Positions 3 to 20,449 of a DNA stretch of 39,923 nucleotides are shown here, one piece after another. Source of the stretch: Corallococcus carmarthensis (lineage in GTDB: Bacteria > Myxococcota > Myxococcia > Myxococcales > Myxococcaceae); contig NZ_RAWE01000073.1 in the NCBI RefSeq assembly GCF_003611695.1, positions 1-39,923 on the forward strand, given 5' to 3'. The notes under the pieces were generated by a model, which made no database searches, was not told the origin of the DNA, and saw nothing but the letters and a program-made list of their open reading frames with translations. The translations under genes and the position numbers were made by a program. How positions within the stretch are numbered: position 1 is the stretch's first letter; the number at the start of each line of letters is the position of its first letter.

Positions 3-1106
3 TCGGCGGTGGGCGCGGGGCGATGGCCCAATCCAACCCTGGAGTGGCAACGGGAGAAGGTCACCTCGGGTTCGGCTTTGAGGGCGAGCCAGGACATCGT
101 GAACGTCTCCATTCCGCTGGTGCTCTCCGGGCGCCTGGGGCTGGAAGCCGAAGCCGCGAACCGGGGCGCCCAGGCCGCGGAGGCAACCCTCGCGAGAGCA
201 CGGGGTGAGCTGCACCATGCAGCGGTGCGCGCCTTCTCCGCGGCGCTGGCGGCCCAGGAGCGACGGCTCATCCTGGAGGAGTCGCTTTCCGCTCTGAGGC
301 GTCTGGCGGAAGTCATTGTCGTACGCGAGCGGGCGGGCGATGCCGCCGGCTACGACAGGCTGCGCATCGAGACCGAAGCAGCGGCGGTGGAGGACGGCTT
401 GAGTGGCGCGGTGCTCGACGAGCATCACGCTCGGGCCCAGGCGCTTCACCTGCTGGGCCCGGGAACGCAGTCCCTGCCTCACCTCCAGGGGCCGCTGGCT
501 CCGGACCGCGTGCTGCCTTCCTCGGAACAGCTCCTGTCCCAGTTGGAGCTGCGCCGCGCCGATGTCCGGGCCCTGGAGCTGGAGGCACAAGGCGCCCAGT
601 CAGCCCACAGGGCAGCGACGCGAGGCTGGGTCCCGGACCCCACGGTGAACGTCGGTGGGCAGCTCATCAACGTGGGACAGCCGGGGGCTGGCGGCGGCTA
701 CGTGGTGGGCCTCGCGCTGCCGTTGCCGCTCTTCGAGCGCAGGCAGGGTCCGGAGGCCCAGGCGCAGGCCCGCCTTCAGCTCGCCGAGGCCCGACGGGCC
801 GCGCTCATCCATGCCGCACGCACCCGCCTCACCGCCGTGCTGGAGGACGTGGCTGGCCAGCGAGCGCGGCGAACCCGGCAGCGGGAAGGCGTGCTCGCTC
901 GCGCGGAGGAACTGCGCCGGATCGCCCAGGCGGCATACCGGGGCGGCAGTGCGGATCTCCTCGTCCTGGTGGACGCGGAACGGACCGCCCGCGAAGCGCG
1001 GCTGACCGCCGTGGAGCTGGCCCTCTCGGTCGCCGAGGCCGAAGCCGACCTCTTCCTTCTTTCGGGCGCCTGGGATGGCGCCGAACCCCGGAGTGCCCAG
1101 CCATGA
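3..1106 (+). CDS. TolC-family outer-membrane efflux protein, 5' partial
   Basis: Outer-membrane channel of a heavy-metal RND efflux system (CzcC/CusC-like). The frame is open to the left edge, so the signal peptide and N-terminus lie outside the window; a GTG at position 9 is in frame but reads as an internal codon, because the N-P-T-L-E-W motif just after it is typical of early mature TolC-family sequence. The rest shows the two-fold OEP pattern: long Ala/Leu/Glu/Arg-rich helices (around 150-360 and 540-1060) separated by a Gly-rich strand near 680-740 that ends in L-P-L-P-L-F, the usual beta-strand signature of this family. It overlaps the adaptor gene by four bases (ATGA at 1103), which indicates translational coupling in a C-B-A operon. 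Substrate cannot be read from this subunit. Confidence 0.88.
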   Translation, partial: SAVGAGRWPNPTLEWQREKVTSGSALRASQDIVNVSIPLVLSGRLGLEAEAANRGAQAAEATLARARGELHHAAVRAFSAALAAQERRLILEESLSALRRLAEVIVVRERAGDAAGYDRLRIETEAAAVEDGLSGAVLDEHHARAQALHLLGPGTQSLPHLQGPLAPDRVLPSSEQLLSQLELRRADVRALELEAQGAQSAHRAATRGWVPDPTVNVGGQLINVGQPGAGGGYVVGLALPLPLFERRQGPEAQAQARLQLAEARRAALIHAARTRLTAVLEDVAGQRARRTRQREGVLARAEELRRIAQAAYRGGSADLLVLVDAERTAREARLTAVELALSVAEAEADLFLLSGAWDGAEPRSAQP

Positions 1107-2722: not shown

Positions 2723-2749
2723 GCCCCTTCCCACTCAGGCACGACACCG

Positions 2750-5700
2750 ATGAATCGCCTCATTCGCTGGTCCATCGACAACCGGTTGTTGGTGGTGGCC
2801 GCCTCCGTGCTGCTGCTGGTGCTGGGCTTCCAGGTCGCCCGAAGCATGCCCGTGGACGTCTTCCCCGACCTCACCGCGCCCACCGTCACCGTTCTCACCG
2901 AGGCCCACGGCCTGGCCCCCGAGGAGGTGGAGACGCTCGTCACGTTCCCCATCGAGACGGCCGTCAACGGGGCCACGGGTGTCCGCCGGGTCCGCTCGGC
3001 GTCGGGCGTGGGCATCTCCATCGTCTGGGTGGAGTTCGAGTGGGGCACGGACATCTACACCGCGCGACAGGTGGTGAACGAGAAACTCCAGCTCGTCGCC
3101 GCACAGCTCCCGGCGGACGTGCCCCCACCGTCCATGGCGCCCATCTCCTCCGTCATGGGAGAGATCCTCTTCCTCTCCGTCTCCTGGAAGCCGGAGGCAC
3201 TGGCGAAGGATGCGGCGGGCCGTGAGGCACAGCTGATGGAGGCACGCGGCGCGGCGGACTGGGTCCTGCGCAAACGCCTGCTCTCCGTCCCGGGCGTCTC
3301 CCAGGTGGTGCCCATCGGCGGGTCGGTGAAGCAATACCAGGTGCTCTTGCGTCCGGAGTCCCTGCAAGCGTTGGGGGTGTCCTTCGAGCAGGTGGCCCAT
3401 GCCCTACGCACCACGAACCAGAACGCTTCCGGCGGCTTCTACGTGCAGGGCGGACAGGAGTACCTGCTGCGCGCCGTGGGACGGGCCCGGGGGGTGGCGG
3501 ATCTGGCGGGCACTGTCGTCAAGGTGCGAGGCGGCGTCCCCATCACCGTGGGACAGGTGGCCGATGTGCAGGTGGGGCCTCGGATCAAGCGCGGCGAGGG
3601 CAGCGCCAACGCGGAGCCCGCTGTCATTCTCGCGGTGATGAAGCAGCCGGACGCCAACACGCTCGCGCTGACCGAGCGGCTGGATGCGGTGCTGGACGAG
3701 GTGCAGGCAACGCTGCCGCAGGGAATGGTGGTGGGACGCAACATCTTCCGGCAGTCGGACTTCATCTCCGTGGCGGTGCGCAACGTGTCGGTGGCCCTGC
3801 GGGACGGCGCCCTCCTCGTCGCGGTCATCCTGCTCGTCTTCCTGATGAACGCGCGGGCGACGTTCATCTCACTCACGGCCATTCCCCTGTCGCTGGTCGC
3901 GACGGTGCTGGCGCTCAAGGCCCTGGGGGTGACGCTCAACACCATGACGATTGGCGGGCTCACCATCGCCATTGGCGCGCTGGTGGATGACGCCATCATC
4001 GACGTGGAGAACGTCTTCCGGAGGCTGCGGGAGAACGCGCACCTGCCGGAGGACCAGCGGCAACCCATGCTGGAGGTCATCTATCGGGCCTCCATCGAGG
4101 TCCGTCACTCCATCGTCTTCGCCACGCTGATCATCATCCTCGTCTTCCTGCCGCTCTTCTTCCTGTCGGGGCTGGAAGGGCGGATGCTGGCTCCCCTGGG
4201 ACTCGCGTACATCGTGGCCATCGCCGCCTCGCTGGTGGTGGCGATGACGCTCACGCCTGCCCTGTGCGCGTACCTGCTGCCGAAGGCCAAGGCGCTCGGG
4301 GCGGAAGAGGGGCCTGTCCTCCGCTGGTTGAAGACGCGCTACCGCCCGGTGCTCCTGTGGGCGCTCGCCAGGCCCCGGGCCATCCTCGCGGGGGCGGGGC
4401 TGGCGCTGGTGGCCACGTTCGCTGTCGTGCCGTTCCTGGGACGGGCGTTCCTCCCCGAGTTCAACGAGGGCACGCTCACGCTCAACGTCGTGACGCTGCC
4501 GGGGACGTCCTTGCAGGAGAGTGACCGGCTGGGCCGGCGCGTGGAGCAGGTGCTGTTGTCCTTCCCCGAGGTCGTCTCCACCTCCCGGCGCACGGGACGC
4601 GCGGAGCTGGATGAGCACGCCCAGGACGTCAACGCGGCGGAAGTGGACGTGGGACTGGACCTGTCCCGGGGAGAGCGAAGCAAGGAACAGCTCCTGGAGG
4701 CCCTCCGCAAGGCGCTGGCGCAGGTCCCGGGTGCCATCATCACCATTGGCCAGCCGCTCAGCCACCGCATCGACCACATGCTGTCCGGCACGCGGGCCAA
4801 CATCGCGTTGAAACTGTATGGCGACGACCTGGACCGGCTGCGCACGCTGGCCGAGCAGGTGAAGAAGGTCGCGGAGGCCACGCCGGGCGCGGTGGACGTG
4901 GCCATCGAGCAACAGGTGGACATCCCCCAGATTGGGATCCGCGCGGACCGGGACGCGGTGGCACGCTACGGACTCACGTCAGGCGAGGTGGCCGAAGCGG
5001 TGGAGCGTGCCTTCGCCGGAGAGACGGTGGGCACCGTCCTGGAAGGCCAGCTCGTGGTGGACATCGCCGTGCGCCTGGATGACGCCTCACGAGAAGACCT
5101 GGACGCCATCGCGGCGACGCCCATCGACACGCCCACGGGCCACCGCATCCCGCTGAAGATGTTGGCGAGCCTCACGCGCGAAACGGGCCCCAACACCATC
5201 AGCCGCGAGGGTGTGCAGCGCAAGATGGTGGTGCAGGCCAACGTGGCGGGGCGCGACCTGTCCACGGTGGTGGAGGAACTGCGCGCTCGCATCCCGCGCG
5301 AGGTGCCCATGCCCACGGGCTATTACGTGGACTACGGCGGCCAGTTCGAGAGCGCCGAGGCAGCCACGCGCACCATCGGCTGGCTGAGCGTGGGCGTGGT
5401 GGTCGGCGTCTTCCTGTTGCTGGTGGTGGCCTTCGGCTCCGTGCGCAACGCGCTGCTCACGCTCATCAACCTGCCGCTGGCGCTCATCGGCGGCGTGCTG
5501 GCGGTGGCACTCACCTCAGGCGTGGTGAGCGTGGCGTCCCTGGTGGGGTTCATCACGTTGTTTGGAATCGCCACGCGCAACGGCATCCTCATGGTGAGCC
5601 ACTACGAGCACCTGATGACCGAGGAGCGGAAGGGGCTTGCGGAGGCCGTGGTCCAGGGCTCGCTGGAGCGGCTGGCGCCTGTCCTGATGACGGCCCTGTG

Positions 5701-5896
5701 CGCGGGGCTGGCCCTGGTGCCCCTGGTCCTCGCGGGGGGCGAGGCAGGCAACGAGATCCAGGCCCCCATGGGTGTGGTCATCCTCGGGGGCCTGCTGTCC
5801 TCCACCTTCCTCAACATGCTGGTGGTGCCGGTGCTGTTCCGGCGCTTCGGCCGGCCACCCGAATCTCGCGCTGCCGCGGTGCCCGCGGAGGGATGA
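2750..5896 (+). CDS. CusA/CzcA-family heavy-metal RND efflux pump
   Basis: Inner-membrane proton/metal antiporter, 1048 residues, the usual HME-RND length. It starts with the family opening (M-N-R-L-I-R-W-S-I-D-N-R) and TM1, then porter domains, a TM2-6 block (about 345-510), a second porter domain and a C-terminal TM7-12 block (about 875-1035). TM4 carries the proton-relay signature V-D-D-A-I-I-D-V-E-N: D413 and E420 align by eye with CzcA D408 and E415, while the CzcA D402 position is Ala, as in CusA. Two extra acidic residues, D414 and D418, are present. A Met in the segment R-I-D-H-M-L-S-G (near residue 680) lies where CusA has a copper-relay Met. The gene follows the adaptor by 27 bases in one operon. 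Cu/Ag-type specificity is favoured but not proven. Confidence 0.93.
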   Translation: MNRLIRWSIDNRLLVVAASVLLLVLGFQVARSMPVDVFPDLTAPTVTVLTEAHGLAPEEVETLVTFPIETAVNGATGVRRVRSASGVGISIVWVEFEWGTDIYTARQVVNEKLQLVAAQLPADVPPPSMAPISSVMGEILFLSVSWKPEALAKDAAGREAQLMEARGAADWVLRKRLLSVPGVSQVVPIGGSVKQYQVLLRPESLQALGVSFEQVAHALRTTNQNASGGFYVQGGQEYLLRAVGRARGVADLAGTVVKVRGGVPITVGQVADVQVGPRIKRGEGSANAEPAVILAVMKQPDANTLALTERLDAVLDEVQATLPQGMVVGRNIFRQSDFISVAVRNVSVALRDGALLVAVILLVFLMNARATFISLTAIPLSLVATVLALKALGVTLNTMTIGGLTIAIGALVDDAIIDVENVFRRLRENAHLPEDQRQPMLEVIYRASIEVRHSIVFATLIIILVFLPLFFLSGLEGRMLAPLGLAYIVAIAASLVVAMTLTPALCAYLLPKAKALGAEEGPVLRWLKTRYRPVLLWALARPRAILAGAGLALVATFAVVPFLGRAFLPEFNEGTLTLNVVTLPGTSLQESDRLGRRVEQVLLSFPEVVSTSRRTGRAELDEHAQDVNAAEVDVGLDLSRGERSKEQLLEALRKALAQVPGAIITIGQPLSHRIDHMLSGTRANIALKLYGDDLDRLRTLAEQVKKVAEATPGAVDVAIEQQVDIPQIGIRADRDAVARYGLTSGEVAEAVERAFAGETVGTVLEGQLVVDIAVRLDDASREDLDAIAATPIDTPTGHRIPLKMLASLTRETGPNTISREGVQRKMVVQANVAGRDLSTVVEELRARIPREVPMPTGYYVDYGGQFESAEAATRTIGWLSVGVVVGVFLLLVVAFGSVRNALLTLINLPLALIGGVLAVALTSGVVSVASLVGFITLFGIATRNGILMVSHYEHLMTEERKGLAEAVVQGSLERLAPVLMTALCAGLALVPLVLAGGEAGNEIQAPMGVVILGGLLSSTFLNMLVVPVLFRRFGRPPESRAAAVPAEG

Positions 5897-7937: not shown

Positions 7938-8251
7938 GAAGGCCTCCCAGGCATCGGAACGTGAACGCCGGGCCGGCTGCCCGTCATCCGTTCCGTGACT
8001 CCGAAGCTCCAGCTTGCCTCGGAGCCGGAGCCGCTTCACCCAGGACCTGCGCCAGGAACGTCCGAGGGGCGGCGGCGCCGGGACAGGCTGCTCCGCCAGG
8101 TCCTCGCTGAACCCGGTGTCCTCCACGCTGCGTGTGACAGCCGTGTGGCACAGGCTGCCTTCCAGGGAGGCTGGTCCCCATGTGGAGGGTCGTGAAACAA
8201 TCCGTAATACCGCGGTTCCGAATGGCACGGTTCGAGGAGGCGGTACAGCAC
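7938..8251. promoter_or_regulatory. 314-base divergent intergenic region, FAD oxidase / response regulator
   Basis: I see no gene here. The right end is the most AT-rich part (about 8190-8225) and should hold the promoter of the two-component operon. A perfect 8-base palindrome ACCGCGGT lies at 8209-8216, 36 bases before the regulator start, a fitting place for an autoregulatory site. The AGGAGG at 8235-8240 is the ribosome binding site of the regulator. No clear sigma-70 hexamers are visible. Confidence 0.4.
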
Positions 8252-8944
8252 ATGAGATTCCTGCTCGTCGAGGACGAGGCGAAGATGGTGCTCCTGCTTC
8301 GCAAGGGACTGGGGGAAGAGGGGCACACCCTGGAGGTCTGTTCGCGGGGCAGCGAGGCGCTCGCGCTGGGAAGCCCGGAGGACTACGACGTCATCGTCCT
8401 CGACTGGTCGCTGCCAGACACGGATGGCATGACGCTGCTCAAGTGCTGGCGCGAGGCAGGCGTGCGCACCCCGGTGCTCATGCTGACGGCGCGCGGCACC
8501 ACCGCCGACAAGGTGAAGGGCCTGCGCTCTGGCGCGGACGACTATCTGGTCAAACCCTTCGACTTCGAGGAGCTGCTCGCGCGGCTGGAGGTGCTGGGGC
8601 GCCGGAGCGAAGCGAAGGACGGCGTGGTGCGCCTGGGGGAGCTGGTGCTGGAGCCCGGCCGGCGCATCCTGCGCATCGGTTCACGGGAGGAGTCGCTCAC
8701 CGCGCGCGAGTTCGCCCTCTTCAGCGCGCTGGCGCGCCATCCCGGTGAGCCCCAGGTGCGGGCGCGGCTGATGGAGCAGACGTGGGGGCCGGACTTCGAC
8801 GGCAGCGCCAACGTGCTCGACGTGTACGTGGGGTACCTGCGCACGAAGCTGGAGCGTCTGGGGGCCGCGCACGTGACCATCCGCTCCGTGCGGGGCGTGG
8901 GCTACAAGCTCGTCGTGGCGCTGCCCGGTGAGCGCCCGGCATGA
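8252..8944 (+). CDS. OmpR/PhoB-family response regulator
   Basis: Cytosolic transcription factor of 230 residues activated by the kinase encoded next. The receiver domain (1-115) has the acidic pair E7-D8, the phospho-acceptor D51 (V-I-V-L-D-W-S-L-P), the conserved T in L-M-L-T-A-R-G, and Lys in D-D-Y-L-V-K-P-F. The winged-helix DNA-binding domain (about 130-228) ends in the typical V-D-V-Y-V-G-Y-L-R-x-K-L and R-G-V-G-Y-K-L. The frame continues 24 codons upstream, but M-R-F-L-L-V-E-D-E is the true beta-1 start and AGGAGG precedes it by 11 bases. The stop overlaps the kinase start (ATGA, 8941-8944). Because it is next to the multicopper-oxidase operon, a metal-response role is plausible but inferred. 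Confidence 0.93.
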
Positions 8945-10344
8945 GGCTGACGCGGCGCTTGTGGTTGCACGGAGCACTGCTGCCCGCGCTGGCCACGCTG
9001 GGCGCGCTGGCGGTCGCGGGGCAGTTGTTCCGCGCGGACCTGGAAAGCTCGCTGGATCGTGCGCTGCTGGCCCAGGCCGCCGTGGAGAGCGTGAGCCTCT
9101 TCGACGGTCCCGGGCAGAAGGTCCACCTGCACATGGCCGTCTCCCCGCTGGTGGAACAGGTGCGCCCCTTCGCCCCGCAGGGCTATCTCTACCAGTCGGA
9201 TGGGCGGCTGGTGATGCGCTATCCGCCGGTCTCCGAGGGCACGCCCGAGCCGCCGCGCCGCGTGCCGGGCACCCGGGACGGCCCTCCGGTGCTGACCACC
9301 GAGGTGGCCCCGGACGGAAGCCGGTGGCGCGAGGTCATGGTCAACGTGCGCTCGCCGCAAGGGGAATGGTACGGGCTGCGGCTCCTGGCTTCGCTGGGAC
9401 AGGTGGACCGCTCGGTGGATTCGTTCTTCCGGATGGCGTTCTCCCTGACGGCGGTGATGGGAGGGTTGCTGCTGATCGTCCAGACCTTGCTGGCGCGCCG
9501 GTTGTCACGGCGGCTGGGAGCCATCGCCCAGAGCCTGGATCGGCTGCGCGAAGGGGACTTCACGCTGTCCCTGGCGGGCGACACGGGCGCCGACGAGATC
9601 GGCCAGGTGGGTGCGGCGCTCCGCGAAGCCACGGCGCGGGTGCGCGGCGCACGCGAGGCGCAGGAGCGGCTCATCGCGAACGCGGCGCATGAGCTGCGCA
9701 CCCCGCTGGCGCTGATGCGCACCAGCCTGGACCTGGCGCTGCGGCGCGAGCGGAGCCTGGAGGAGCTGCGCGCATCGCTCAGGGACGCACGCACGGAGGT
9801 GGACCGGCTGGCGTTGCTGGCGGACTCGCTGCTGGACATGGCCACCGCGGGGCGCGGCGCGTGGGATTGGAAGAAGGGGGACCTGGGCCTGCTGCTGACG
9901 CACGCGGTGGAAGGGGCCCGCGCGGAGGCCGAGCGGCGGGGCCTGCTCATCCACCTGGAAACGCCCGCCGGGATGGAGGCGCCGTTCGACGCGGGCAGCC
10001 TGCGGCAGGCGGTGGACAACCTCCTGGGCAATGCCCTCAAGTTCTCCCCGAGGGGCGGAGAGATCCATGTCCGGCTGGCGGCGGAGGCGGGACGCTTTCG
10101 CGTGAGCGTGACGGACACCGGCCCGGGCATTCCCCTGGCGGAGCGCGACGCGGTGTTCGAACCCTTCCACCGCGTGGCCGGCGCGGAGCCCAGGCCCGGA
10201 GCGGGGCTGGGCCTGGCCATCGTGCGCGAGGTCGCGCGGCGGCACGGAGGTTGGGCCTACGTCGCGCCCGGGACCGCGCCCGGCGCAGAGCTGGTGCTGG
10301 AGCTGCCAGCGGCGCCGCCCGTGGAGGGCCGGGCCTCATGGTGA
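8941..10344 (+). CDS. Membrane sensor histidine kinase
   Basis: Inner-membrane sensor of 467 residues. TM1 is at about 8-29, a periplasmic domain at 30-160, TM2 at 163-184, then HAMP (about 185-237), DHp with phospho-acceptor His-250 in A-A-H-E-L-R-T-P, and a HATPase domain with N-box D-N-L-L-G-N-A-L-K-F, G1 D-T-G-P-G-I-P and G2 G-A-G-L-G-L-A-I-V. The periplasmic part contains V-H-L-H-M at 61-65, a cluster that could bind Cu or another soft metal (inference). Its 3' end overlaps by nine bases the 3' end of the convergent cytochrome/binding-protein gene, so the system and the oxidase operon are tightly packed end to end. The closest functional families are CusS/CopS-like kinases, but the sequence alone does not prove the signal. 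Confidence 0.92.
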   Translation: MRLTRRLWLHGALLPALATLGALAVAGQLFRADLESSLDRALLAQAAVESVSLFDGPGQKVHLHMAVSPLVEQVRPFAPQGYLYQSDGRLVMRYPPVSEGTPEPPRRVPGTRDGPPVLTTEVAPDGSRWREVMVNVRSPQGEWYGLRLLASLGQVDRSVDSFFRMAFSLTAVMGGLLLIVQTLLARRLSRRLGAIAQSLDRLREGDFTLSLAGDTGADEIGQVGAALREATARVRGAREAQERLIANAAHELRTPLALMRTSLDLALRRERSLEELRASLRDARTEVDRLALLADSLLDMATAGRGAWDWKKGDLGLLLTHAVEGARAEAERRGLLIHLETPAGMEAPFDAGSLRQAVDNLLGNALKFSPRGGEIHVRLAAEAGRFRVSVTDTGPGIPLAERDAVFEPFHRVAGAEPRPGAGLGLAIVREVARRHGGWAYVAPGTAPGAELVLELPAAPPVEGRASW

Positions 10345-11952
10345 CAGGGGAATCCAGTCCGACGCGGCCCGCAGGCGTCCCGTCGTCGCCTCCAGCGTCG
10401 CGAGCTGCGCGCCCTGGACGCCGACCCGGCGGTTCACGCCGAAGCTGACCGGCGGAGAGACCCCGGTGTCGAAGTCGCGCAGGGACTCCAACTGCTGTTG
10501 AAGGCCCGCGCGCGTGAGGTCCGCGCCCGCGCGGGTGACGGCCTCCACGAACACCCGCGCGGCGGCGTAGGCCCCCAACTGGAAGGCGGTGTGGCCGGGC
10601 TTCAAGCCGTGCCGGTCCATGAACACGGTCAGCGCCTCCAGGTCCGGCGCGTGCTCGCCCAGCCCCATGGGCGACAGGAAGAAGACCTGTCCCCCGGTGA
10701 GCTCCGGCCGCCGCGGATCCGCGAGCGCCGCCGGAGCGAACACCGGCACCTTCATCGCACGCGCGGCCAGCGTCTTCGTGAGCGAGGCCAGTCCCTCGGA
10801 CGTCCCGGTGTACAGCACCGCGAACGGCGCCGGCCCCGGCTCCGTCTCCGTCTCCTCCAGCGCGGGGCCCCAGTCCAGCGGCGTGGCCAGCTCACGGCGG
10901 GCCGCTTCCGCGCGCACGGCCTCCCACCACGCGCGGCCAGCCGCGTCCTCCGGATGCACCACCGCGAGCGGCTGCCGTCGCAGGCGGGGCCCCTCGGTGC
11001 TGGACAGGTGCTGCACCGCGAGCCGCGCCAGGGCGGAGGGCTCCGGGTAGAGGAAGAACACCGGCCCCTCGTCCGGCGGCGGCCCCGGCTCCAACGGCAG
11101 GGGCAGCACCAGCGGCGCGCCTTCCTGCTCCAGCCGCGCGTCGGACGCGAGCCGCGCTGGACGGAGGCTGGCCACCAGCGCGAAGACGTCCCGCTCCAGC
11201 AGCCGCGCCGTGGCATCCGCGCCCGCGGAGGACGCGGCCGTCGCGTACAGCGCCGCGTCGTCCTCCACCACCAACTCCAGCTTGCGCCGGAAGATGCCGC
11301 CGCGCGCGTTCACGTCCGCGAACACCGCGCGCACCACCGCCTGGACCTCCTGTCCCACCGGCGCCAGGTGCCCCTTCAACGGCAGCGCCGCGCCCACCGT
11401 GAGCGTCGTCGTGGAGAGGCCGGGATCCGGCGCCGCGTCCAGCGTCTGGAGGTAGCCGAGCAGTGCGTCCGCGTCCGCCTCCGTGAGCGCGTAGCGCGGC
11501 ATGGCCACGCCCAGGGGCCGGCCGCTGGCGGAGCGTCCCTCCGTGATGGCGCGCAGCAGCGTGGCGCGCGTGTACGCGGGGCGTGCGCGGTCCTCGATGT
11601 CCTCCAGTCCCACCGCGCGCGAATGCTGGAGCGAGCCGGGGGTGATGTCCGGCACCTCCACGCCGCCTTCGCGGCTGCCCCGCCCGGAGGGGCCATGGCA
11701 ACGTGCGCACGCGGCGACGGTCCCTTCCAGCTCCACCCGCTCGGGCCCCAGGAAGCCGGTGAGCGGCGAACCCTGGGGGGACTGGCCCCGCTGGAAGAGG
11801 CCGCGCCCGTGCCTCACCTCCGCGGAAGTCGCGGCCCGCGGGGGTGACTCGCGCCTGCAACCGGACAGCAGCAGCCCGGCCGCGAGCACCAGCACCACGC
11901 CCCACCGGGTGCCCGGTGCGAGCCCCGTCCCACCACCGCGCCTCCACCGCAT
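10336..11952 (-). CDS. Lipoprotein fusing c-type cytochrome and type 1 periplasmic binding domain
   Basis: Exported protein of 538 residues. A type II signal ends in L-L-S-G-C (lipid Cys-32). A mono-heme cytochrome c domain follows: C-A-R-C-H at 82-86 for covalent heme, and M151 in A-M-P-R-Y-A-L-T-E-A-D-A as the probable distal ligand. Residues about 184-515 form a Peripla_BP_6-type (branched-chain amino acid/ligand) binding fold that starts L-T-V-G-A-A-L-P-L-K-G and contains A-D-V-N-A-R-G-G-I. No ABC permease or ATPase gene is nearby, so import is unlikely; ligand sensing or presentation coupled to electron transfer is possible. The frame is open far upstream, but the ATG at 11952 gives the signal peptide and lies 11 bases after the Sco gene. 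It is the last gene of the oxidase operon. Confidence 0.85.
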   Translation of the reverse strand: MRWRRGGGTGLAPGTRWGVVLVLAAGLLLSGCRRESPPRAATSAEVRHGRGLFQRGQSPQGSPLTGFLGPERVELEGTVAACARCHGPSGRGSREGGVEVPDITPGSLQHSRAVGLEDIEDRARPAYTRATLLRAITEGRSASGRPLGVAMPRYALTEADADALLGYLQTLDAAPDPGLSTTTLTVGAALPLKGHLAPVGQEVQAVVRAVFADVNARGGIFRRKLELVVEDDAALYATAASSAGADATARLLERDVFALVASLRPARLASDARLEQEGAPLVLPLPLEPGPPPDEGPVFFLYPEPSALARLAVQHLSSTEGPRLRRQPLAVVHPEDAAGRAWWEAVRAEAARRELATPLDWGPALEETETEPGPAPFAVLYTGTSEGLASLTKTLAARAMKVPVFAPAALADPRRPELTGGQVFFLSPMGLGEHAPDLEALTVFMDRHGLKPGHTAFQLGAYAAARVFVEAVTRAGADLTRAGLQQQLESLRDFDTGVSPPVSFGVNRRVGVQGAQLATLEATTGRLRAASDWIPLSP

Positions 11953-11963
11953 GCCGTGCCCCC

Positions 11964-13088
11964 TCACCTGGGATCGTTCAGGTGTTCCACCGCGGCGACG
12001 ATGTTGTCCGCCATCGCCATGGCCGGGGACTTGACCCACATGCCCGTGGCGGCGTCGCCGATGAGCAGCGTCGTGTTGTGCTCGTCCGGCTTCTCCGCGT
12101 AGCCGCCGAGCTTCTTCAGCACGAGCGTGAGGTTCTCCCGGGAACCCGTGAGGAAGTACCACCCCGGCTGCGCGCCGAACTTCTTCGCGAACTTCGCCAG
12201 GCTCTTCGGCGTGTCGTTGGTGGGGTCCACGGAGAGCGTGATCATGTGCACGTCCTTGCCCATGCGCTCCGCGAGCTTCTTCTGCACCTCCGCCAGATGC
12301 TGCGTGATGGGGGAGCACGCGCCCTTGCAGGACGTGAACGCGAAGTTGATCAGCACCGTCCGGCCCCGCACCAGGTCCTCGTAGAAGCGGTGCGTCTTGC
12401 CGTGCTGGTCCACCAGCTCCGTGTTGGTGAAGTACTTCGCCGCCGCGGCGTCCTGGGCGGCCGTGCCGTCCACGGCCGTCAGCTCGGGCGGCGCGGCGGA
12501 GGAGGCCTGAGCCTCCTTCACCGCCTCTACGATGCGCGAGGGGCTGCCCAGTCCGTCCACGCGCGTCCACCGGTGGGTGAGCGCGTTGCCCACGAGCACG
12601 AGCGGCCGGTGCGACTCCTTGTCCGGCACGTATCCCCCCAGCGCCACCAGCGCCTCCTTCACCTTCGCGGGCTCGCCGGTGAGGAAGGACCAGTCCGGCC
12701 CGGGGTGGAAGGGCTCCGCGAACTTCGCCAGCCGCTCCGGCGTGTCGTTGTTCACGTCCAGCGTGATGGAGATGAAGCGCACGTTCGACTTCGGCCCCAG
12801 CGCCTTGCGTGCCCGGTCGAGCGTGGCCGTCACCGGCGTGCAGATGGTCTTGCAGCGCGTGAAGATGAAGTTGATGGCCACGGTCTGTCCGCGCACCAGG
12901 TCCGACCACAGCCGGACCTGCCGGCCGTGTTGATCCACCAGCGCCACGTCCGGCACCGTCACCTCCAGGGACTCGGGCGCCGCGGGCCGGGCGGGGAGGG
13001 GGACGCGCACGTCCTCTTGCGCGAGCGCGAGCGGCGCGCACGTCAGCGCCAGGGCGAACAGGGCCTGCTTCAGGGTCGGGATTCTCAT
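11964..13088 (-). CDS. Tandem Sco1/SenC/PrrC copper-chaperone protein
   Basis: Exported protein of 374 residues with a cleavable-looking signal (1-23, A-L-A before Gln) and two thioredoxin-fold Sco domains. Domain 1 (about 42-195) has C79-K-T-I-C83 and His-160; domain 2 (about 215-370) has C254-K-G-A-C258 and His-337. The CxxxC plus distal His set is the Cu-binding site of Sco proteins that load copper into CuA centres or other cuproenzymes; here both domains keep all three ligands. Normal Sco proteins have one domain of about 200 residues. The start overlaps the stop of the beta-propeller gene (ATGA, 13085-13088). The neighbouring giant multicopper oxidase is the natural client; no cytochrome oxidase gene is in the window. 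Confidence 0.92.
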   Translation of the reverse strand: MRIPTLKQALFALALTCAPLALAQEDVRVPLPARPAAPESLEVTVPDVALVDQHGRQVRLWSDLVRGQTVAINFIFTRCKTICTPVTATLDRARKALGPKSNVRFISITLDVNNDTPERLAKFAEPFHPGPDWSFLTGEPAKVKEALVALGGYVPDKESHRPLVLVGNALTHRWTRVDGLGSPSRIVEAVKEAQASSAAPPELTAVDGTAAQDAAAAKYFTNTELVDQHGKTHRFYEDLVRGRTVLINFAFTSCKGACSPITQHLAEVQKKLAERMGKDVHMITLSVDPTNDTPKSLAKFAKKFGAQPGWYFLTGSRENLTLVLKKLGGYAEKPDEHNTTLLIGDAATGMWVKSPAMAMADNIVAAVEHLNDPR

Positions 13089-15073
13089 GGGGTGGACTCG
13101 GAGGTGAGGGCGGCCGCGAGCGGGGACGACACGCCGAGGGTGGACGTGGGCAGGCGGCCCAGGTCGAGCCCCCGGCCCTCCACGCCCACCACGAACTTGT
13201 ATTGGCCCGGCGACGGCGGCCGGAAGTCGACCTCGAAGACGCTGTCGGCGACGCGCCGGGGTTCGGTGCGCACCTGCCAGGTGCCGGGCGTGCGGAACAG
13301 CAGCACGCGGATCTCCTCCGGCGCCACCGGGGGTGTGCCCGTGCCCGCGGTGGGCTCCAGGCGGAAGCGCAGCGGCACCGTCTCTTCCGGCGCGTACGTC
13401 CGCTTCGCGTCGAACTCCGGCGTGAGCTTCAAGGGCAGCGTCTTCGCGAACGACGCATCCAGGGGGACCTGGCCCACCGTCCACTCCAGGCATGCCACGA
13501 CCCGGGGGTTGTCCAGCAGCACCTGGACGTCATAGGTGCCGTTCTCGCGCACGCTGCCCCGGGCGGTGAAGACGCCGGGCTCCACTTCGCGCAGCGAGCG
13601 ATCCAACACCTTCACCGCGCGGGGTTCACGGCCGTAGTTCAGGTGCGTGCCGCGCGGGGCCATCATGCCTTCCTGGTAGAGAAACAGCGCGCGGTCCGCG
13701 TTGCCCGCGGCGATGACGCCGTTGCCCTCAGGCAGCGGCGCGATGGGATCCGAGCGGCCCAGCTCCCGTGCCTCGGCCGCGGGCCGCTGGCCCATGGTGA
13801 TGCGCACCTGGGAGGGTGTGCTGCCATTACTCTCCAGCGTCTTCAACTCCACCAGCGTCACGCGGCTGTCGGTGGTGTTGCGCACGTAGGCGAATGCGTC
13901 CGTGAACACGACGGAGTCCGGCGCGGAGAAGCCGGTGAGCGTGTGGGCCACCTGCCCGGACGCCGCGTCCAGGATGTCCACCGTGCTGGTGTCCTGGTGC
14001 ACCAGGAACGCCCAGCGGCCGGTGTTGTCGAAGCGCAGCGCGTCCAGGCCGCCCTTCACCGGGATGCGGCGCGACACCTCGCGGCGGGCGGCGTCCACCA
14101 CCACCACCTCATGCGCCCCGGGCCTCGCGGCGAAGAGGGCCCGGGCCACGTCGCTCCAGGCCAGCGCGGTGACGCCGACGCCCACCTCCACCTGGCCCAG
14201 CATCTGGCCGGAGGTCACGTCCAGCGCCGTCAGCGCCGTGGCGTCGCGGGCGGAGACCCAGGCGGTGCGTCCGCTGTCGGAGAAGCCGAAGGCGTGCGGG
14301 CCCGGCCCCACGTCCACCGGATCGCGCACGGCGTGCCCGGGCGTGTCGATGACGCTCACCGTGCCGTCGCCGTCGTTGCTCACCCACGCGGTGAGGCCAT
14401 CCGGGGACAGCGCGATGCGCCCCGGATTGCGGCCCACGCGCAGCGGGCGCGTCACCACGAAGCGCTGGGTGTCCACCACGGACACGGTGTCCTGCGACGG
14501 CACCGTCACGTACAGCGCGGAGCGGTCCGGCAGGAGCGCCCAGTCCGCCGCGCCACCGCCCACGGACACCAGGTGCTGGAGCTTCGTGCGGTCGAAGGCG
14601 ATCTGCGGGTTGATGACGGACACCGTCTGGTCGTGATTGAGCGTGAGGAACCAGTACGCGTTGAAGTCCACGTCCGCCTGCGCGGACAGCAGCCCGCCCA
14701 GATACGTCCTCACCCGCGCCTTGCACGCGGCGTCGTCCGGGGCAGGTTCTCCTTGGGGGCGCAGGCGCATCCACGCCAGGGGACGGCGCCCCGCCAGGGG
14801 TTCACCCGTGCGGGCATCCGTGAGTGCGACGCGTGCGACCGCCTGCAGCGGCGAACCCTGTTCGGCCTCCAGCGGCCGGGGCGTCAGCGTCAGGTCGAAC
14901 GCGAGCGACACCCCGTCGCGCGTCACCTTCACGGCGGGCGCGGTGAGGGGCGAGGGTGCGGACCGCGAGGCGGTGGGCGCGGCGGGGACCCGCGCGAGGA
15001 GGCGGTGGGCGCCCATGGCGAGGAGCCCGGTGGACAGCAGACCGGCGGTGGCGAGGACGAAGGGCTTGCGCAT
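13085..15073 (-). CDS. Exported YVTN/YncE-like beta-propeller protein with flanking Ig-like domains
   Basis: Protein of 662 residues with an N-terminal signal or anchor (about 7-24). Residues 45-105 form a beta-sandwich like the FixH/YtkA type, followed by a central propeller (about 145-425) made of repeating blades with T-V-S-V-(I/V)-(N/D)-(T/P), L-S-P-D-G-x-T-A-W-V-S-N and T-V-D-I-L-D-A signatures, as in YncE and cytochrome-d1-like folds. The C-terminal 490-650 again looks Ig/FixH-like. There is no CxxCH, so no covalent c-heme is evident. It lies between the multicopper oxidase (96 bases upstream) and the Sco gene (4-base overlap). Likely a periplasmic scaffold or a metal- or redox-protein partner of the oxidase; no enzymatic motif is seen. 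Confidence 0.8.
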   Translation of the reverse strand: MRKPFVLATAGLLSTGLLAMGAHRLLARVPAAPTASRSAPSPLTAPAVKVTRDGVSLAFDLTLTPRPLEAEQGSPLQAVARVALTDARTGEPLAGRRPLAWMRLRPQGEPAPDDAACKARVRTYLGGLLSAQADVDFNAYWFLTLNHDQTVSVINPQIAFDRTKLQHLVSVGGGAADWALLPDRSALYVTVPSQDTVSVVDTQRFVVTRPLRVGRNPGRIALSPDGLTAWVSNDGDGTVSVIDTPGHAVRDPVDVGPGPHAFGFSDSGRTAWVSARDATALTALDVTSGQMLGQVEVGVGVTALAWSDVARALFAARPGAHEVVVVDAARREVSRRIPVKGGLDALRFDNTGRWAFLVHQDTSTVDILDAASGQVAHTLTGFSAPDSVVFTDAFAYVRNTTDSRVTLVELKTLESNGSTPSQVRITMGQRPAAEARELGRSDPIAPLPEGNGVIAAGNADRALFLYQEGMMAPRGTHLNYGREPRAVKVLDRSLREVEPGVFTARGSVRENGTYDVQVLLDNPRVVACLEWTVGQVPLDASFAKTLPLKLTPEFDAKRTYAPEETVPLRFRLEPTAGTGTPPVAPEEIRVLLFRTPGTWQVRTEPRRVADSVFEVDFRPPSPGQYKFVVGVEGRGLDLGRLPTSTLGVSSPLAAALTSESTP

Positions 15074-15169: not shown

Positions 15170-18100
15170 CTACTCCACCCGGTACACGCCCCACAGACCG
15201 CCGCTGCTCCAGAGGAAGCTGGGCATGTCGCGGTACAGGTAGTCGCCCTTGACGCCGTAGGCGCCGCCCGCGCCGTACTCCGGGACGATGTTCCAGTGGT
15301 GCATCACGGACGAACCGCCCTGCGTGGAGATGACCGGCGACGTGGCGTTGGGGCCCATCACCCGCGACTGCGCGCCCGCGGCCCAGGGGTTGCGGCGCCA
15401 CTCCGCGCCGTGGATGGCGAACGCGTGCTGCCGCGAGTGGCCCGACGGCTGTCCCACGCGCCAGCGCACCGGCTCACCCACCTTGGCGGTGAACACCGGC
15501 GTGGCCGGGTCGCCGCCGTAGGCCGTGCTGCTGAGGATGGCGGTGAGGTCGTAGTTGTTCGTGTCCTCTGGCGGCGTCTGCGGCGGCACACCCAGGCGGG
15601 CCCACAGCGGATCGGTGCGGTAGTTGAAGCCCTTCTGGCCGGTGTCCTGGGAGTCGTCGATGCCGTTGGTGTTGCGCAGCGCCGTGCCGCTGTTCAGGCC
15701 GCTGGTGCCGGAGTCCTGGAAGCGGGTGTTGTCGGTGTGCAGGCCCAGGTCGTCCTGGTAGAGCAGGACGAACTCACGGAACGTCTGCTTGCTGCCGTCC
15801 TGGCGCGTGTAGCGCACGCGCGCCTGCGCGTCCGTGCCGGAGTCGGTGCTCCAGTCCGCGTCCTTCGGCTCGATGACCAGCGCGCCAATGGCGCCGTGCA
15901 TGCCGTGGTTCACCACGTCCGCCATGTTGCGCAGGTTGACGATGCCGAACTCCGTCGGCGTCACCAGACCCACCGGGAACGGCGCCGTCCACGGCGAGCT
16001 CTTGAACTCACCCGCGAACCAGCGGTACGTGCGCGTCGCGCCCGGCGGCACCGTCTGCTGGGCGTTGAGGCCCACGTTCGCGCCGTCGTCCGTGTTCACG
16101 TCCACGTTGACCAGCTGCGGGTGCAGCGAGACGTGGTTGGACATCCGCGTCTGGTTGACGTTGAAGCTGGACGTGATGGCCGAGTGGTGCGCCCACACGT
16201 CCTTCTTCGTGGGCACCGTGGCGGGCAGCCGGTTGGTGAGCACCACCTGCACGCACTCGCCGGCCCGCGCGCGGAGGACCAGCGGCTCCGGGGCGCGCTT
16301 GCCCAGCTTCAGGTCGGACAGGTACTCGTCGCGGGCGAAGATGATCGCGTCCGGATCATAGAAGCCGTGCTTGCTGTTGTAGACGAGCCGTCCGCCGGGC
16401 AGCCAGTTGCGCGCGTCGATGGCGGATACATTGTAGAGCCGCACCGGCGCGTTGCGCGGGCACGAGTCCACCTTCACCGGCTTGGTGCCCAGCTTCCCGC
16501 TGTTCTCGTACTGGAGCACCAGCTCCCGGTCGATCTTCAGCATCTCCTCGCGCTCCTCCAGCGCGAACGTCACGGTGCGCTGCTTCACCTCCTCGCCCTT
16601 CTCGTTGATCTCGTAGGAGGCCTGGATGGTGTCGTCGCTCTCGCTCAACCGGGGCAGGCCCGCGCGCTCCGGCATCTCCAGCAGCGCCACGGGCGGGTAG
16701 GCCTGGAGCGGCTCCTTGCCTCCCGCGGACACCGCCAGATCCAGCCGCGGGTTCAGGTCCACCGCGAGCATCGCCACGTCACCCAGCGAGCGCAGCCCCT
16801 TCTGCTTGTTGCGGTACGTGCGCATCAGGCCCCACATGCCGTTCCAGAGGTCGCCGTTGGAGGCGCTCATGTACATGTAGTCCGCCGTCTCGTAGGTGCC
16901 GCCGATGGCGGGCAGGCCCCCGGTCAGCTCGAACTCGAAGTGTTCGGAGATGCCAATGGCCTGGGCGTTCTGGAAGCCGCTGTTCGGATCGCCGCCCTCG
17001 CGCAGCCACTTGTGGCCGTGCAGGTTGAAGCTGTGCTGCTCCTCCTGCGAGCCCTGGACCAGGCGGATCTTGATGCGGTCGCCCTCGTAGCCCGCCATCA
17101 GCGGGGTGTACGGGTCGCCGTGGATGTCCGAGCGGAAGACGTTGGACATCTCACCCGCCTTGGTGGCGAGCAGCTTGCGGGTGCCGCAGCGTGAGGAGCG
17201 CGCGGAGATGCGCACCGGGATGGGTTCGTTGCGGTAGTTGATCATCATGGCGCCCGGGTCCGCGGCGCTGATGGCCTCCGGCATGGGGGTGGACTCGAAG
17301 CCGACCGCCCAGGGCAGCGCGTCCTCCTTGTAGTTGGGAGGGTTCACGGGCTGGCCGCACTCGTCGTAGAGCGGGTTGTAGTCCATGAAGCCCAGCGTGA
17401 ACTCGCGGAAGCTCTGGCTGGGGTCCGCGGTGATGACGTCCGCGCGCCAGCTGGTGGGGCCGCCGTCCGCCACGCGCGAGCCGTAGTAGACGCCGGTGCG
17501 CGGGTCGCGCCACTTGGAGCCCTTGGGCTCCACGATGAGCGCGCCGAAGAAGCCGTGCTGCTGGTGCGACGACGGGCCGAAGTGATCATGGGTGAAGACC
17601 GTCTCCAGCGTGCGCTGCGCGGACTGGTCATCCGCCCACCAGCGCTGCACCGTGGTCTGCGCCGTGCCTGGCGCGCGGCTGATGCGCGGGTGCGACGCGG
17701 GGGCGGTGAGCGTCACGCGCGTGCCTGTCTCACCGACGTTGCCGTCCGCCGCGAAGGCGCCGCCGGCCGCGTTGGCCAGGTGGATGCGCTCCGCCACGGT
17801 GTCGGAGGACAGCGTGCCGTCCTCGTAGTTCCAGCCGTTGCCGGCGCCGTCCGCCGACGTCACGTCGAACTTCACCAGGTGGATGTGCTGCCCGATGACA
17901 TCCGTGGGCGTGTAGATCTGGAACGCGTCCGGCTCCAGGTGCTTGGGGATGAGGTTCGTCGAATAGAAGTTGATGCACTCGCCGGACTGGGCCCGGAAGA
18001 AGAAGGGCTCCGGCGGGCGCAGGCCGTCCTGGGTCGCGTTCACGTCCTCGTTGAGGACCATCAGCCGGGCCTGCGGGTCATGCCACCCGGCGCGGTTGAT

Positions 18101-20449
18101 GCGCTGCAGGTCGATCTGGAGGTAGGCCGCGCGGTAGTTGCGCACGCCCGCGTTCGCGGGGCAGGGGTCCGCGAAGGGCGCCCCCGCCACCGCCTTGCGC
18201 CCGTTGACGTTGAACGTCCCGCTGCCGCCCAGCGGCGTGTACGAGGGGTAGCCCGCGGCCTGATCCCCGTAGAGGGTGGTGACGCCGGAGGCGTTGGGGA
18301 ACTCGCCCGCGTGGAACGCCATGGCGTTCTTCTCCATGGGGGTGCCGTTGTGGGGGAGCAGCTTGATGTTGAGCGCGGCGGGGTCCACGTCGAAGCGGCC
18401 GGAGGCGCCGTACGTCACGGTGCCCACGGCGCGCGTGACGATGTGGCGGGGCAGGCCGCCGTCGTAATCCAGGTCCAGCGGCGCCTGCGGCGCGCGGCGG
18501 CCCGACAGGCCCGCGATGTAGAAGGGGAAGCCGGGGAACGCCGGGCGCGTCACCGGCCGGCCGTTGGAGTCCGTGACGGTGGTGCTGGCGTAGGTCGGCA
18601 TGGGCGGCATCGCCCGGTTGGGCAGCGGGACGACCGCGGGGTTGGGCGTGCCGTTCTTGATCTCCGCGTCGGGGAGGAGGCGGTCGCTGGTGCCGGCCTC
18701 GAAGACGTCGTGCACGCGCCACAGCGCCCACATGCCCTGCGCGAAGTGCGGGTACAGGTGGCAGTGGTGGATGGAGTCGCCCGCGGTGAAGTTGCGGTTG
18801 CCGGAGCCGCCGTAGTTGATGTCGTAGGTGAAGGTGGAGCCCGGCCCGATGGTCTGCGAGTCCAGGTAGTTGGACGTCTCCACGCTGGGAGAGAACTTCC
18901 ACTGGTGGGCGTGGAGGTGGAAGACGTGCGTCTCCGCGGGGCCCGCGTGGATGTTGCGGATGCGCACCGGGTCCCCCAGGTAGCTGTGGTGCACGTTGGT
19001 GGGGTCATCCGGGTAGAGCGCCTGGGTGGCGCGGCCGGAGGCGTCCTTCTCCACGTTCATCGCGGGGTCGCCGTTGGCCCACGACTCCAGGAAGAACTCC
19101 TCGTACTCGCAGGTGACGCAGTCCTTGGTGGGACCGATCTTCGCGCGGTTGGCGAGCAACTCCGCGCCCAGGCCGGCCACGCCGTAGTTGATGCCGAAGC
19201 CGTCGCGCACGCTGTGGAACGTGGGGTTCCACTCCAGCTCGTCGAAGGCCTGAACCGCCTTCACCTCGTCGTGGTAGATGGCGGTGAACTCGCGGAAGCT
19301 GCCCGTGTCCTTGGAGGTGGACGTCCCCACCTCCGTGCTGGAGTAGCCGGTGATGAGCGCCTCCAGGTCGCCGTGGCGGATGCGGTTGTCCCCGTCCAGG
19401 ATGGCCAGCAGCGGCCGGCCCGAACCGTCCTTCGCCTCGTAGTCGATGACGGGCGTGCCGTCGGGGTTGCGGGACGTGGTGACGGCCTCCAGCGCCTTGC
19501 CCGTGACCTTGGAGCGGTACCACCGCGCGCCCGGCGGCTCGACGTTGATGGCGCCGAAGAGGCCGTGCACCGTGGAGCCGCCGTCGCCCTGGCCTCCGAA
19601 CGACGCGCCCATGCTGTAGAAGAAGAAGACGCCCTCGTGGTCCGCGTACCAGGTGTACGTGGTGCTGGCGCCGGGGCTCACCAGGCTGCTCGCGTTCTTG
19701 CCCACCCAGGCCCCGTCCGAGCCCATGGTGAAGTACTGCAGGCCCTGCACGTGGATGGACGCGGTGCGCGTGGCCGGAGAGTCTTCCTTGTGCGTGTCGT
19801 CGAACTTGCCCTCGTCGCCCGGGTAGACCCAGAAGCCGCCGGAGGGCGCGTTCTGGAGCAGCGACTTGACCCGGTCATACGTGGGCGTCAGCACCCAGGC
19901 GGGCAGCACCTTGCGCAGGAACGTCCAGCCATTGCTGGAGCCCGACGCCCGGCTCACGCCCGGCTGCGACTGGGACGGGCTGGGGATGGCGGAGCGCGTG
20001 GGCGCCAGCATGTTGTGGAACTGGACCGTGAGGCAGTCCCCCACGTTGGCGCGCAGCGTGAGCGGGCGCGGGCGCTTGTCCGCCTTCAGTCGGACGTTGC
20101 CTGGAATCAGGCCGGGCTTGCCGTCGATGGCCTCCACGTCGTCGCGGAGCGCGTAGATCATCCCCGTCGGGTTGTAGGAACCCAGGCGGTTGTAGGTGTA
20201 GACCTGATCGAAGGCGACCACCTCCGCGCTGACGGTCCGCGCGCAGGCAGGGGAGGGAGGCGGGACGGGGTCCGGGAGGATCTTGTCCCGGTACGGCAGG
20301 TTGACGATCTGGATGCCCTGCGCGGTGGAGCCCGTGCCCGCCGCGTCACCGGGCGCTCGCGGCCCGCAAGCCATCACGCCGCAAAGCGCGGCGAAGAGCG
20401 CGGTCCGACCGTGTCGTGACGCAATGCTTCTCTTATGGTGTGGATACAC
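15170..20449 (-). CDS. Giant six-cupredoxin lipoprotein multicopper oxidase
   Basis: Exported protein of 1759 residues. A GTG start follows GAGGGGG; the signal ends in V-M-A-C with lipid Cys-28. It has three two-domain units, about 60-640, 740-1215 and 1320-1759. In each, a Gly-(D/E)-C-(L/I/V) strand starts the odd domain, which ends in (I/V)-x-V-E-P or L-(I/V)-(V/I)-E-P; the even domain has an H-x-F-x-(L/I)-H-x-(H/A)-x-W strand and a terminal W-(A/G)-(L/V)-x-R-(V/T/D) strand. Only unit 1 keeps H508-x-x-H511-x-H513 and H562-C563-H564-x3-H568-x4-M573 (type 1/type 3 ligands); only unit 2 keeps H855-x-H857 and H954-x-H956. Together these are a full mononuclear-plus-trinuclear copper set in permuted order. 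Size and domain count resemble Mn(II) oxidases of the MnxG/McoA type and ceruloplasmin. Mn oxidation is inferred; cuprous or organic oxidation is possible too. It is the first gene of a four-gene operon. Confidence 0.9.
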   Translation of the reverse strand: MYPHHKRSIASRHGRTALFAALCGVMACGPRAPGDAAGTGSTAQGIQIVNLPYRDKILPDPVPPPSPACARTVSAEVVAFDQVYTYNRLGSYNPTGMIYALRDDVEAIDGKPGLIPGNVRLKADKRPRPLTLRANVGDCLTVQFHNMLAPTRSAIPSPSQSQPGVSRASGSSNGWTFLRKVLPAWVLTPTYDRVKSLLQNAPSGGFWVYPGDEGKFDDTHKEDSPATRTASIHVQGLQYFTMGSDGAWVGKNASSLVSPGASTTYTWYADHEGVFFFYSMGASFGGQGDGGSTVHGLFGAINVEPPGARWYRSKVTGKALEAVTTSRNPDGTPVIDYEAKDGSGRPLLAILDGDNRIRHGDLEALITGYSSTEVGTSTSKDTGSFREFTAIYHDEVKAVQAFDELEWNPTFHSVRDGFGINYGVAGLGAELLANRAKIGPTKDCVTCEYEEFFLESWANGDPAMNVEKDASGRATQALYPDDPTNVHHSYLGDPVRIRNIHAGPAETHVFHLHAHQWKFSPSVETSNYLDSQTIGPGSTFTYDINYGGSGNRNFTAGDSIHHCHLYPHFAQGMWALWRVHDVFEAGTSDRLLPDAEIKNGTPNPAVVPLPNRAMPPMPTYASTTVTDSNGRPVTRPAFPGFPFYIAGLSGRRAPQAPLDLDYDGGLPRHIVTRAVGTVTYGASGRFDVDPAALNIKLLPHNGTPMEKNAMAFHAGEFPNASGVTTLYGDQAAGYPSYTPLGGSGTFNVNGRKAVAGAPFADPCPANAGVRNYRAAYLQIDLQRINRAGWHDPQARLMVLNEDVNATQDGLRPPEPFFFRAQSGECINFYSTNLIPKHLEPDAFQIYTPTDVIGQHIHLVKFDVTSADGAGNGWNYEDGTLSSDTVAERIHLANAAGGAFAADGNVGETGTRVTLTAPASHPRISRAPGTAQTTVQRWWADDQSAQRTLETVFTHDHFGPSSHQQHGFFGALIVEPKGSKWRDPRTGVYYGSRVADGGPTSWRADVITADPSQSFREFTLGFMDYNPLYDECGQPVNPPNYKEDALPWAVGFESTPMPEAISAADPGAMMINYRNEPIPVRISARSSRCGTRKLLATKAGEMSNVFRSDIHGDPYTPLMAGYEGDRIKIRLVQGSQEEQHSFNLHGHKWLREGGDPNSGFQNAQAIGISEHFEFELTGGLPAIGGTYETADYMYMSASNGDLWNGMWGLMRTYRNKQKGLRSLGDVAMLAVDLNPRLDLAVSAGGKEPLQAYPPVALLEMPERAGLPRLSESDDTIQASYEINEKGEEVKQRTVTFALEEREEMLKIDRELVLQYENSGKLGTKPVKVDSCPRNAPVRLYNVSAIDARNWLPGGRLVYNSKHGFYDPDAIIFARDEYLSDLKLGKRAPEPLVLRARAGECVQVVLTNRLPATVPTKKDVWAHHSAITSSFNVNQTRMSNHVSLHPQLVNVDVNTDDGANVGLNAQQTVPPGATRTYRWFAGEFKSSPWTAPFPVGLVTPTEFGIVNLRNMADVVNHGMHGAIGALVIEPKDADWSTDSGTDAQARVRYTRQDGSKQTFREFVLLYQDDLGLHTDNTRFQDSGTSGLNSGTALRNTNGIDDSQDTGQKGFNYRTDPLWARLGVPPQTPPEDTNNYDLTAILSSTAYGGDPATPVFTAKVGEPVRWRVGQPSGHSRQHAFAIHGAEWRRNPWAAGAQSRVMGPNATSPVISTQGGSSVMHHWNIVPEYGAGGAYGVKGDYLYRDMPSFLWSSGGLWGVYRVE

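Follow-up and report, generated by a model that had tools for sequence, protein, structure and literature searches.

Sco proteins are described, in passages of PMC9145763 and PMC7558416, chiefly as factors for the assembly of cytochrome oxidase. A 39,923-nucleotide stretch of DNA from Corallococcus carmarthensis (contig NZ_RAWE01000073.1; hereafter the window) carries two Sco domains in a single polypeptide, encoded in a cluster with a giant multicopper oxidase. How did two Sco domains come to be joined in one chain, and what might such a chain do for a multicopper oxidase? Because Sco proteins have been described mainly for cytochrome oxidase, their list of clients would grow if a Sco pair were dedicated to a multicopper oxidase.

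A single polypeptide with two complete Sco domains

The tandem Sco gene (11964..13088, minus strand) encodes a protein of 374 amino acids, with the N-terminus MRIPTLKQALFALALTCAPLALAQ in the minus-strand frame 13088..11964. A longer open reading frame of 509 amino acids starts at 13493, upstream of the ATG at 13088. We prefer the ATG at 13088 as the start, because it overlaps the stop codon of the preceding gene (ATGA) and is followed by a signal peptide, as judged by eye. The third-position GC of the frame is 96%. Pfam SCO1-SenC (PF02630) matches the protein in two stretches (135.9 bits, E 1.1e-39), and each half alone passes the PF02630 cut-off of 22.8 bits in a whole-genome search (74.2 and 65.6 bits). 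A sequence-only reading had claimed two complete Sco domains, with C79, C83, H160, C254, C258, and H337 intact; translation and the two Pfam stretches bear out the domains, and all six amino acids are found at these positions.

Domain 1 (residues 39–197; 12498..12974, minus strand) has its cysteines in the motif C79-K-T-I-C83 (12840..12854) and its histidine at H160 (12609..12611), while domain 2 (residues 213–372; 11973..12452, minus strand) has C254-K-G-A-C258 (12315..12329) and H337 (12078..12080), all assigned by translation and alignment and all on the minus strand. The conserved aspartate before NDTP is found in both domains. The two are connected by a linker (residues 198–212; 12453..12497, minus strand) that is predicted to be disordered.

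Residues 1–24 (13017..13088, minus strand) form a probable signal peptide, for which model confidence is low. By eye, the N-terminus resembles a cleavable export signal, with no lipobox at C17 and no evident anchor. Fused relatives at loci L075 and L076 have lipoprotein-like N-termini.

Predicted structure

Domain 1 alone was modeled by AlphaFold2 with a pLDDT of 92.3, and the best Foldseek match to this model in the PDB is BsSco (1xzo, E 2.2e-12). The full chain was modeled with a pLDDT of 84.6 and a pTM of 0.57, with residues 199–212 of the linker below 50. The alignment behind the full-chain model had 23 rows (20 Sco1 and 3 Sco2), every one of them on domain 1; given many Sco1 and many Sco2 rows, MAFFT stacked them onto a single domain. 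Both ranges of the full-chain model match Sco chains. The top 14 rows are all Sco-type (Z 16.3–20.3, rmsd 2.0–3.4, 148–160 residues), with 4hde as the best match of domain 2 (Z 20.3), and two more Sco NMR entries, at Z 14.7 and 13.9, rank alongside peroxiredoxins. Non-Sco folds matching the domain models are those of ResA, TlpA, and peroxiredoxins. As modeled, the tandem protein is two thioredoxin-like Sco domains on a floppy linker.

Two sites in one chain predicted to be flexible bring to mind a copper relay, an idea of the sequence-only reading, in which one domain would receive copper and pass it to the other, which alone would dock on the oxidase. The motifs of the two positions differ, being mostly CTT[VI]C in the first and Cx[DG]AC in the second (CKTIC and CKGAC in the window), so the domains are probably not equivalent, and hand-over of copper between a Sco protein and another periplasmic chaperone is described for PccA and SenC in a passage of PMC7558416. 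However, no interdomain arrangement is fixed in the model, given its pTM and an alignment with rows on domain 1 alone, and the sequence data give no ranking of the two affinities. The model therefore neither supports nor excludes a relay, and we regard this possibility as rather unlikely.

The mnxG-type operon

Within an operon-like cluster, the tandem Sco gene sits between a YVTN gene and a cytochrome c/SBP gene, behind the MnxG-type oxidase. The oxidase is a giant MnxG-like multicopper oxidase of 1759 amino acids, whose GTG start is not certain (15170..20449, minus strand). It is followed by a YVTN/YncE-like β-propeller of 662 amino acids (13085..15073, minus strand), directly upstream of the tandem Sco gene. 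Downstream of the latter is a gene for a cytochrome c domain and a Peripla_BP_6 substrate-binding domain (10336..11952, minus strand), which has the same place in the cluster as in Pseudomonas putida GB-1. Table 4 of PMC11409713 gives the order in P. putida GB-1 as mnxG, a YVTN repeat protein, two SCO1/SenC genes, an SBP with a cytochrome c domain, and a SurA domain. The order MnxG, YVTN, Sco1, Sco2, and cytochrome c/SBP is shared by loci of Pseudomonadota and Myxococcales.

The oxidase matches NF041487, the NCBI model for MnxG, with an E value of 2.3e-289. Its score of 963 bits is below the cut-off of 3100, and we therefore call it MnxG-like and not a certified MnxG; this cut-off was passed in none of 195 Myxococcota genomes. 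The sole solved relative found is MnxG (PDB 9bxa, E 1.5e-140). The oxidase has the type 1 copper motif HCHLYPHFAQGM and the HxH strings HLHAH, HCH, HIH, HDH, and HGH. The pattern HCHxxxHxxxxM occurs in all 110 MnxG-type frames longer than 1500 amino acids, that of the window included, and two looser patterns occur in 102 and 97 of the 110. We take HCHxxxHxxxxM and the further HxH motifs to represent a type 1 copper site and to be sufficient for a trinuclear one.

Intact Sco sites beside an oxidase that keeps type 1 and HxH motifs make loading of the oxidase the natural reading. The sequence-only reading had arrived at this idea, which is supported by two intact sites in one chain next to such an oxidase, both sites being conserved and both domains being under purifying selection. 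It missed the origin of the chain in two split Sco genes, adjacent in mnxG operons of Pseudomonas and others, that had diverged before they were fused. A more specific form of the idea, likewise put forward by that reading, in which one domain would serve the type 1 copper and the other the trinuclear cluster, agrees with the presence of motifs for both kinds of site in the oxidase and with the conservation of an unequal Sco pair across phyla. Yet no sequence feature ties either domain to a site, and the passages of PMC9145763 and PMC7558416 contain no case of one Sco per site for a multicopper oxidase. Such a division by site is very unlikely in our estimate.

Two further gene sets lie near the cluster in the window. 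A response regulator and kinase pair (8180–10344) is tail to tail with the cytochrome/SBP gene. Such a pair flanks 13 of 19 fused clusters (L065–L080, L094–L096), and L095 is one further, with a kinase piece at the edge. The regulator in the window is OmpR-like by its domains and differs from the sigma-54 regulator MnxR of Pseudomonas, as described in part of PMC11409713. At positions 9–5896 are an outer membrane factor, a CusB/CzcB-like adaptor, and a CusA/CzcA-like RND pump.

The operon might not serve manganese at all: the oxidase might act on Cu(I), Fe(II), or something else, with the Sco domains providing general copper handling. The gap between 963 bits and the MnxG cut-off of 3100, together with the nearby CusA/CzcA-type efflux set and regulator/kinase pair, is consistent with this. 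Against it, gene order and contents match the Pseudomonas mnxG operon, and the sole structure found for a relative is that of MnxG (9bxa). We consider a purpose other than manganese possible but doubtful.

Distribution of fused and split forms

The tandem protein occurs as one open frame in 27 of 145 Myxococcales genomes, counted from listed matches that span both domains; one of these (G121) has a fused copy truncated where its contig ends, as well as a second copy that covers residues 35–356. Several of the 27 genomes are single-contig, and an assembly error as the source of the double frame was ruled out. Of 195 Myxococcota genomes, 33 encode an MnxG-type oxidase, and the same 33 encode the propeller. 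All 33 also have a Sco pair or fusion: 27 have the fusion and 6 have split genes only, while one (G043) has both. This last genome has three mnx-type clusters (L069, L081, and L089), with one fused and two split Sco and two oxidase classes by score. A few genomes, such as G011, G012, G032, and G137, have strong single Sco matches without MnxG.

The named-genome set covers 80 of 555 confirmed MnxG loci, mostly from Pseudomonas. Two Sco genes are present at 67 of the 80 loci, one at three (L152, L165, and L179, the last on a contig that ends inside the first Sco), and none in the stretch examined at ten, nine of which end within about 2.6 kb after MnxG; none of the 80 has a fused Sco. At one Pseudomonas locus (L166), the nearly 10 kb that follow MnxG contain no gene for a propeller, a Sco protein, or a cytochrome, and so a lone MnxG does exist. 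Among 33 Myxococcales loci (the window and L065–L096), 24 are fused, 8 are split, and 1 has the oxidase without a Sco (L084); eight single-Sco loci without MnxG (L097–L104) are outside this count. L106 and L093, which represent a single genomic location, were counted once per set. Over 113 loci, the complete order is found with separate Sco genes at 69 and with a fused Sco at 20, the rest being cut, re-ordered, doubled, or incomplete.

Fusion is seen only in Myxococcales, in 27 of the 33 MnxG-bearing genomes. At a threshold of E 1e-42, matches that extend over both domains were absent from 398 genomes of the phylum of Pseudomonas umsongensis (at most four candidates per genome; with no positive control, this empty result carries no weight by itself) and from 297 genomes of the phylum of the L108 MAG (at most six candidates per genome), where two matches proved to be one-domain matches.

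Several loci depart from the usual arrangement. L087 (4301–9209) has a fused Sco with propeller and cytochrome/SBP genes and no MnxG in the 7.8 kb upstream (best tblastn E 0.046); its genome carries a second, complete cluster (L072). L188 (5397–9926) has a split Sco pair and a cytochrome/SBP gene, with neither propeller nor MnxG within 16,000 bases, and the two Sco genes of L187 are non-adjacent. In Myxococcales, L099–L104 are single Sco genes without MnxG that make up a separate branch of the Sco tree; five of the six adjoin a cytochrome/SBP-like gene, with none seen in L104. Three MnxG-type genes occur in a row in L153 (Pseudomonas), and two in L161 (a gammaproteobacterial MAG).

Conservation of both copper sites

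Both Sco proteins have the two cysteines, the aspartate, and the histidine in 66 of 67 named pairs and in 31 of 32 myxobacterial pairs. The exceptions are L108, in which the second cysteine is lost in both Sco proteins, and L074, whose contig ends inside domain 1. The metal-binding histidine is kept in 109 of 110 first-position and 99 of 99 second-position domains, the one miss being the contig-cut L179. Compared with six relatives by a simple counting method, dN/dS is 0.18–0.34 for domain 1 and 0.10–0.22 for domain 2; by this measure, both domains are under purifying selection. Degeneration of domain 2 was ruled out, as all its ligands are present and its dN/dS is low.

Both Sco proteins of the mnxG cluster in L108 (8251–9517, an Acidobacteria MAG) have kept the first cysteine, the aspartate, and the histidine, their motifs being CxxxY and CxxxQ. 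The joint loss in L108 hints that the partners change together. The lone Sco of L152 has CxxxE, with histidine and aspartate kept.

One domain might be a copper chaperone and the other mainly a thiol-disulfide reductant, acting on the copper-site cysteines of the oxidase or the heme-binding cysteines of the neighboring cytochrome. An oxidoreductase role for Sco in the assembly of CuA has been proposed, according to passages of PMC7558416 and PMC9145763, and ResA, TlpA, and peroxiredoxins are among the folds that match the domain models. A pure reductant would not need the histidine, however, which is kept in both positions (109/110 and 99/99), and the three Sco proteins without a second cysteine (both of L108 and that of L152) still keep histidine and aspartate. 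We judge this division of labor to be decidedly unlikely.

Two other features were compared between forms and positions. His-rich tails, with at least three histidines around the domain start, occur in 76 of 138 split Sco proteins of named genomes, in 0 of 24 fused ones, and also in 0 of 16 split myxobacterial ones, and thus follow lineage and not fusion. The pI did not separate the Sco1 and Sco2 positions and so gave no clue to donor and acceptor.

Descent of the two domains

A tree of 106 Sco domains separates first- from second-position Sco proteins by a single change. Labels cover 99 of its rows, with seven single Sco proteins unlabeled and with those of L165 and both of L187 labeled by kind and not by place. 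An earlier tree of 108 rows had two canonical Sco outgroups on long branches, one of them inside the Sco2 group; the 106-domain tree was therefore built without these two, left out L108_S1, L148_S1, L097_S1, and L098_S1 as well, and added the four Sco proteins of L187 and L188. In both trees, domain 1 falls among the Sco1 genes and domain 2 among the Sco2 genes, making them orthologs of the first and second Sco genes in split operons. This grouping is with Pseudomonas-type operons, GB-1 itself being absent from the trees. Since domains 1 and 2 fall with Sco1 and Sco2 genes, respectively, the Sco pair is older than the fusion. As judged from these trees, the tandem protein arose by fusion of two paralogs whose divergence is ancient. 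A recent internal duplication was ruled out, as the domains fall with different, widely spread paralogs.

In a tree of 38 operon loci, the fused and split states require four changes, at least three of which are forced by strongly supported branches. Near-copies and most Pseudomonas loci were left out of this tree, and the oxidase for L083 was taken from L084 of the same genome. The Sco columns alone give three changes. An AU test of these columns rejected a single fused clade (p-AU 2e-39; 37 rows, L105 left out), for a group named after the earlier trees had been seen. The fused L075 and L076 cluster with split Sco proteins of two genomes of the Acidobacteria MAG phylum (99/96), namely the Sco2 of L187 and L188 and the Sco1 of L188 only. 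The fusion joints are unlike in sequence and length between fused lineages. We thus count at least two independent fusions in myxobacteria and consider three or four probable; formally, some of the changes could instead be fissions.

Overlapping neighbor genes can fuse without functional gain, which is a caveat for our main reading of the pair. The split Sco genes are closely spaced and their open frames often overlap, so an in-frame deletion of a stop codon and signal peptide should be easy, and the fusion might be neutral, the product of chance deletion. Three points stand against this: at least two and probably three or four separate events struck the same pair and were kept each time, both domains are still constrained as judged by dN/dS, and fused domains are necessarily made 1:1. 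We hold a neutral fusion to be a tentative alternative at most.

A probable role as a fused Sco pair for a multicopper oxidase

The tandem protein is probably the fused form of a dedicated periplasmic Sco pair of the mnxG-type operon, a 1:1 pair that matures the oxidase. Each domain would bind one copper. After export to the periplasm, both domains would act 1:1 on one client, the MnxG-like oxidase, which by its motifs may hold at least four copper ions. Their tasks would not be interchangeable, in that one might take copper from its partner, or each might serve a different site or redox step. Fusion would hold two already cooperating proteins in fixed stoichiometry and proximity, and the floppy linker would let both domains reach the client.

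Long joint conservation and repeated fusion lead us to see Sco1 and Sco2 as partners, and the repeated joining in myxobacteria suggests that both chaperones act next to each other. A single chain is not required for function, since the pair usually consists of two separate proteins. The coupling between Sco and MnxG is strong and yet not absolute, as seen from loci with one Sco (L152 and L165) or none (L166) and from Sco genes without MnxG in the stretch examined (L087 and L188). A bolder proposal, which we offer with considerable reserve, is that giant MnxG-type oxidases in general need two non-interchangeable Sco proteins on one client, and that myxobacteria fused them repeatedly for copper hand-over within a complex or for delivery of two coppers. 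If true, the fused protein would be a ready-made single-chain machine for inserting copper into a multicopper oxidase.

That these two unequal genes were joined more than once naturally hints at physical contact between their products, and in the fused chain either site can be knocked out on its own. This opens the biology of myxobacterial mnxG-type operons, and the insertion of copper into giant multicopper oxidases, to direct tests.

Comparison with known systems

MnxG is already known, as are single-domain Sco proteins and the Sco pairs encoded in mnxG operons. The fused Sco form and its repeated origin were absent from the open-access literature searched, most subscription papers being outside it. 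When the text of papers was searched for Sco proteins of tandem or double form, the matches listed were all unrelated, and no discussion was found in the open-access literature searched, where one paper mentions mnxG together with SenC, of why mnxG operons have two Sco genes.

BsSco (YpmQ) of Bacillus subtilis (1xzo, 1on4) has the same Sco fold and CxxxC...H site, and is the best sequence match of the tandem protein, on domain 2 (E 1.3e-15). It differs in having one domain and in serving the CuA site of cytochrome c oxidase, as described in a passage of PMC9145763. The proteobacterial ScoI and SenC proteins (4wbj, 4txo) likewise have the Sco fold and copper site in common with the window protein, but they are single-domain proteins with a one-helix or lipid anchor, according to part of PMC9145763. 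On the side of the client, Bacillus MnxG (9bxa) is a homolog of the window oxidase, with six matched pieces along its length (E 1.5e-140). It has 1227 residues compared with 1759 in the window oxidase, and works with MnxE and MnxF in the Mnx complex (part of PMC5622069). The paired SCO1/SenC genes of P. putida GB-1 (IMG 641547572 and 641547573, in the relevant part of PMC11409713) share neighbors and order with the window, whereas their products are two separate exported Sco proteins and that of the window is one chain.
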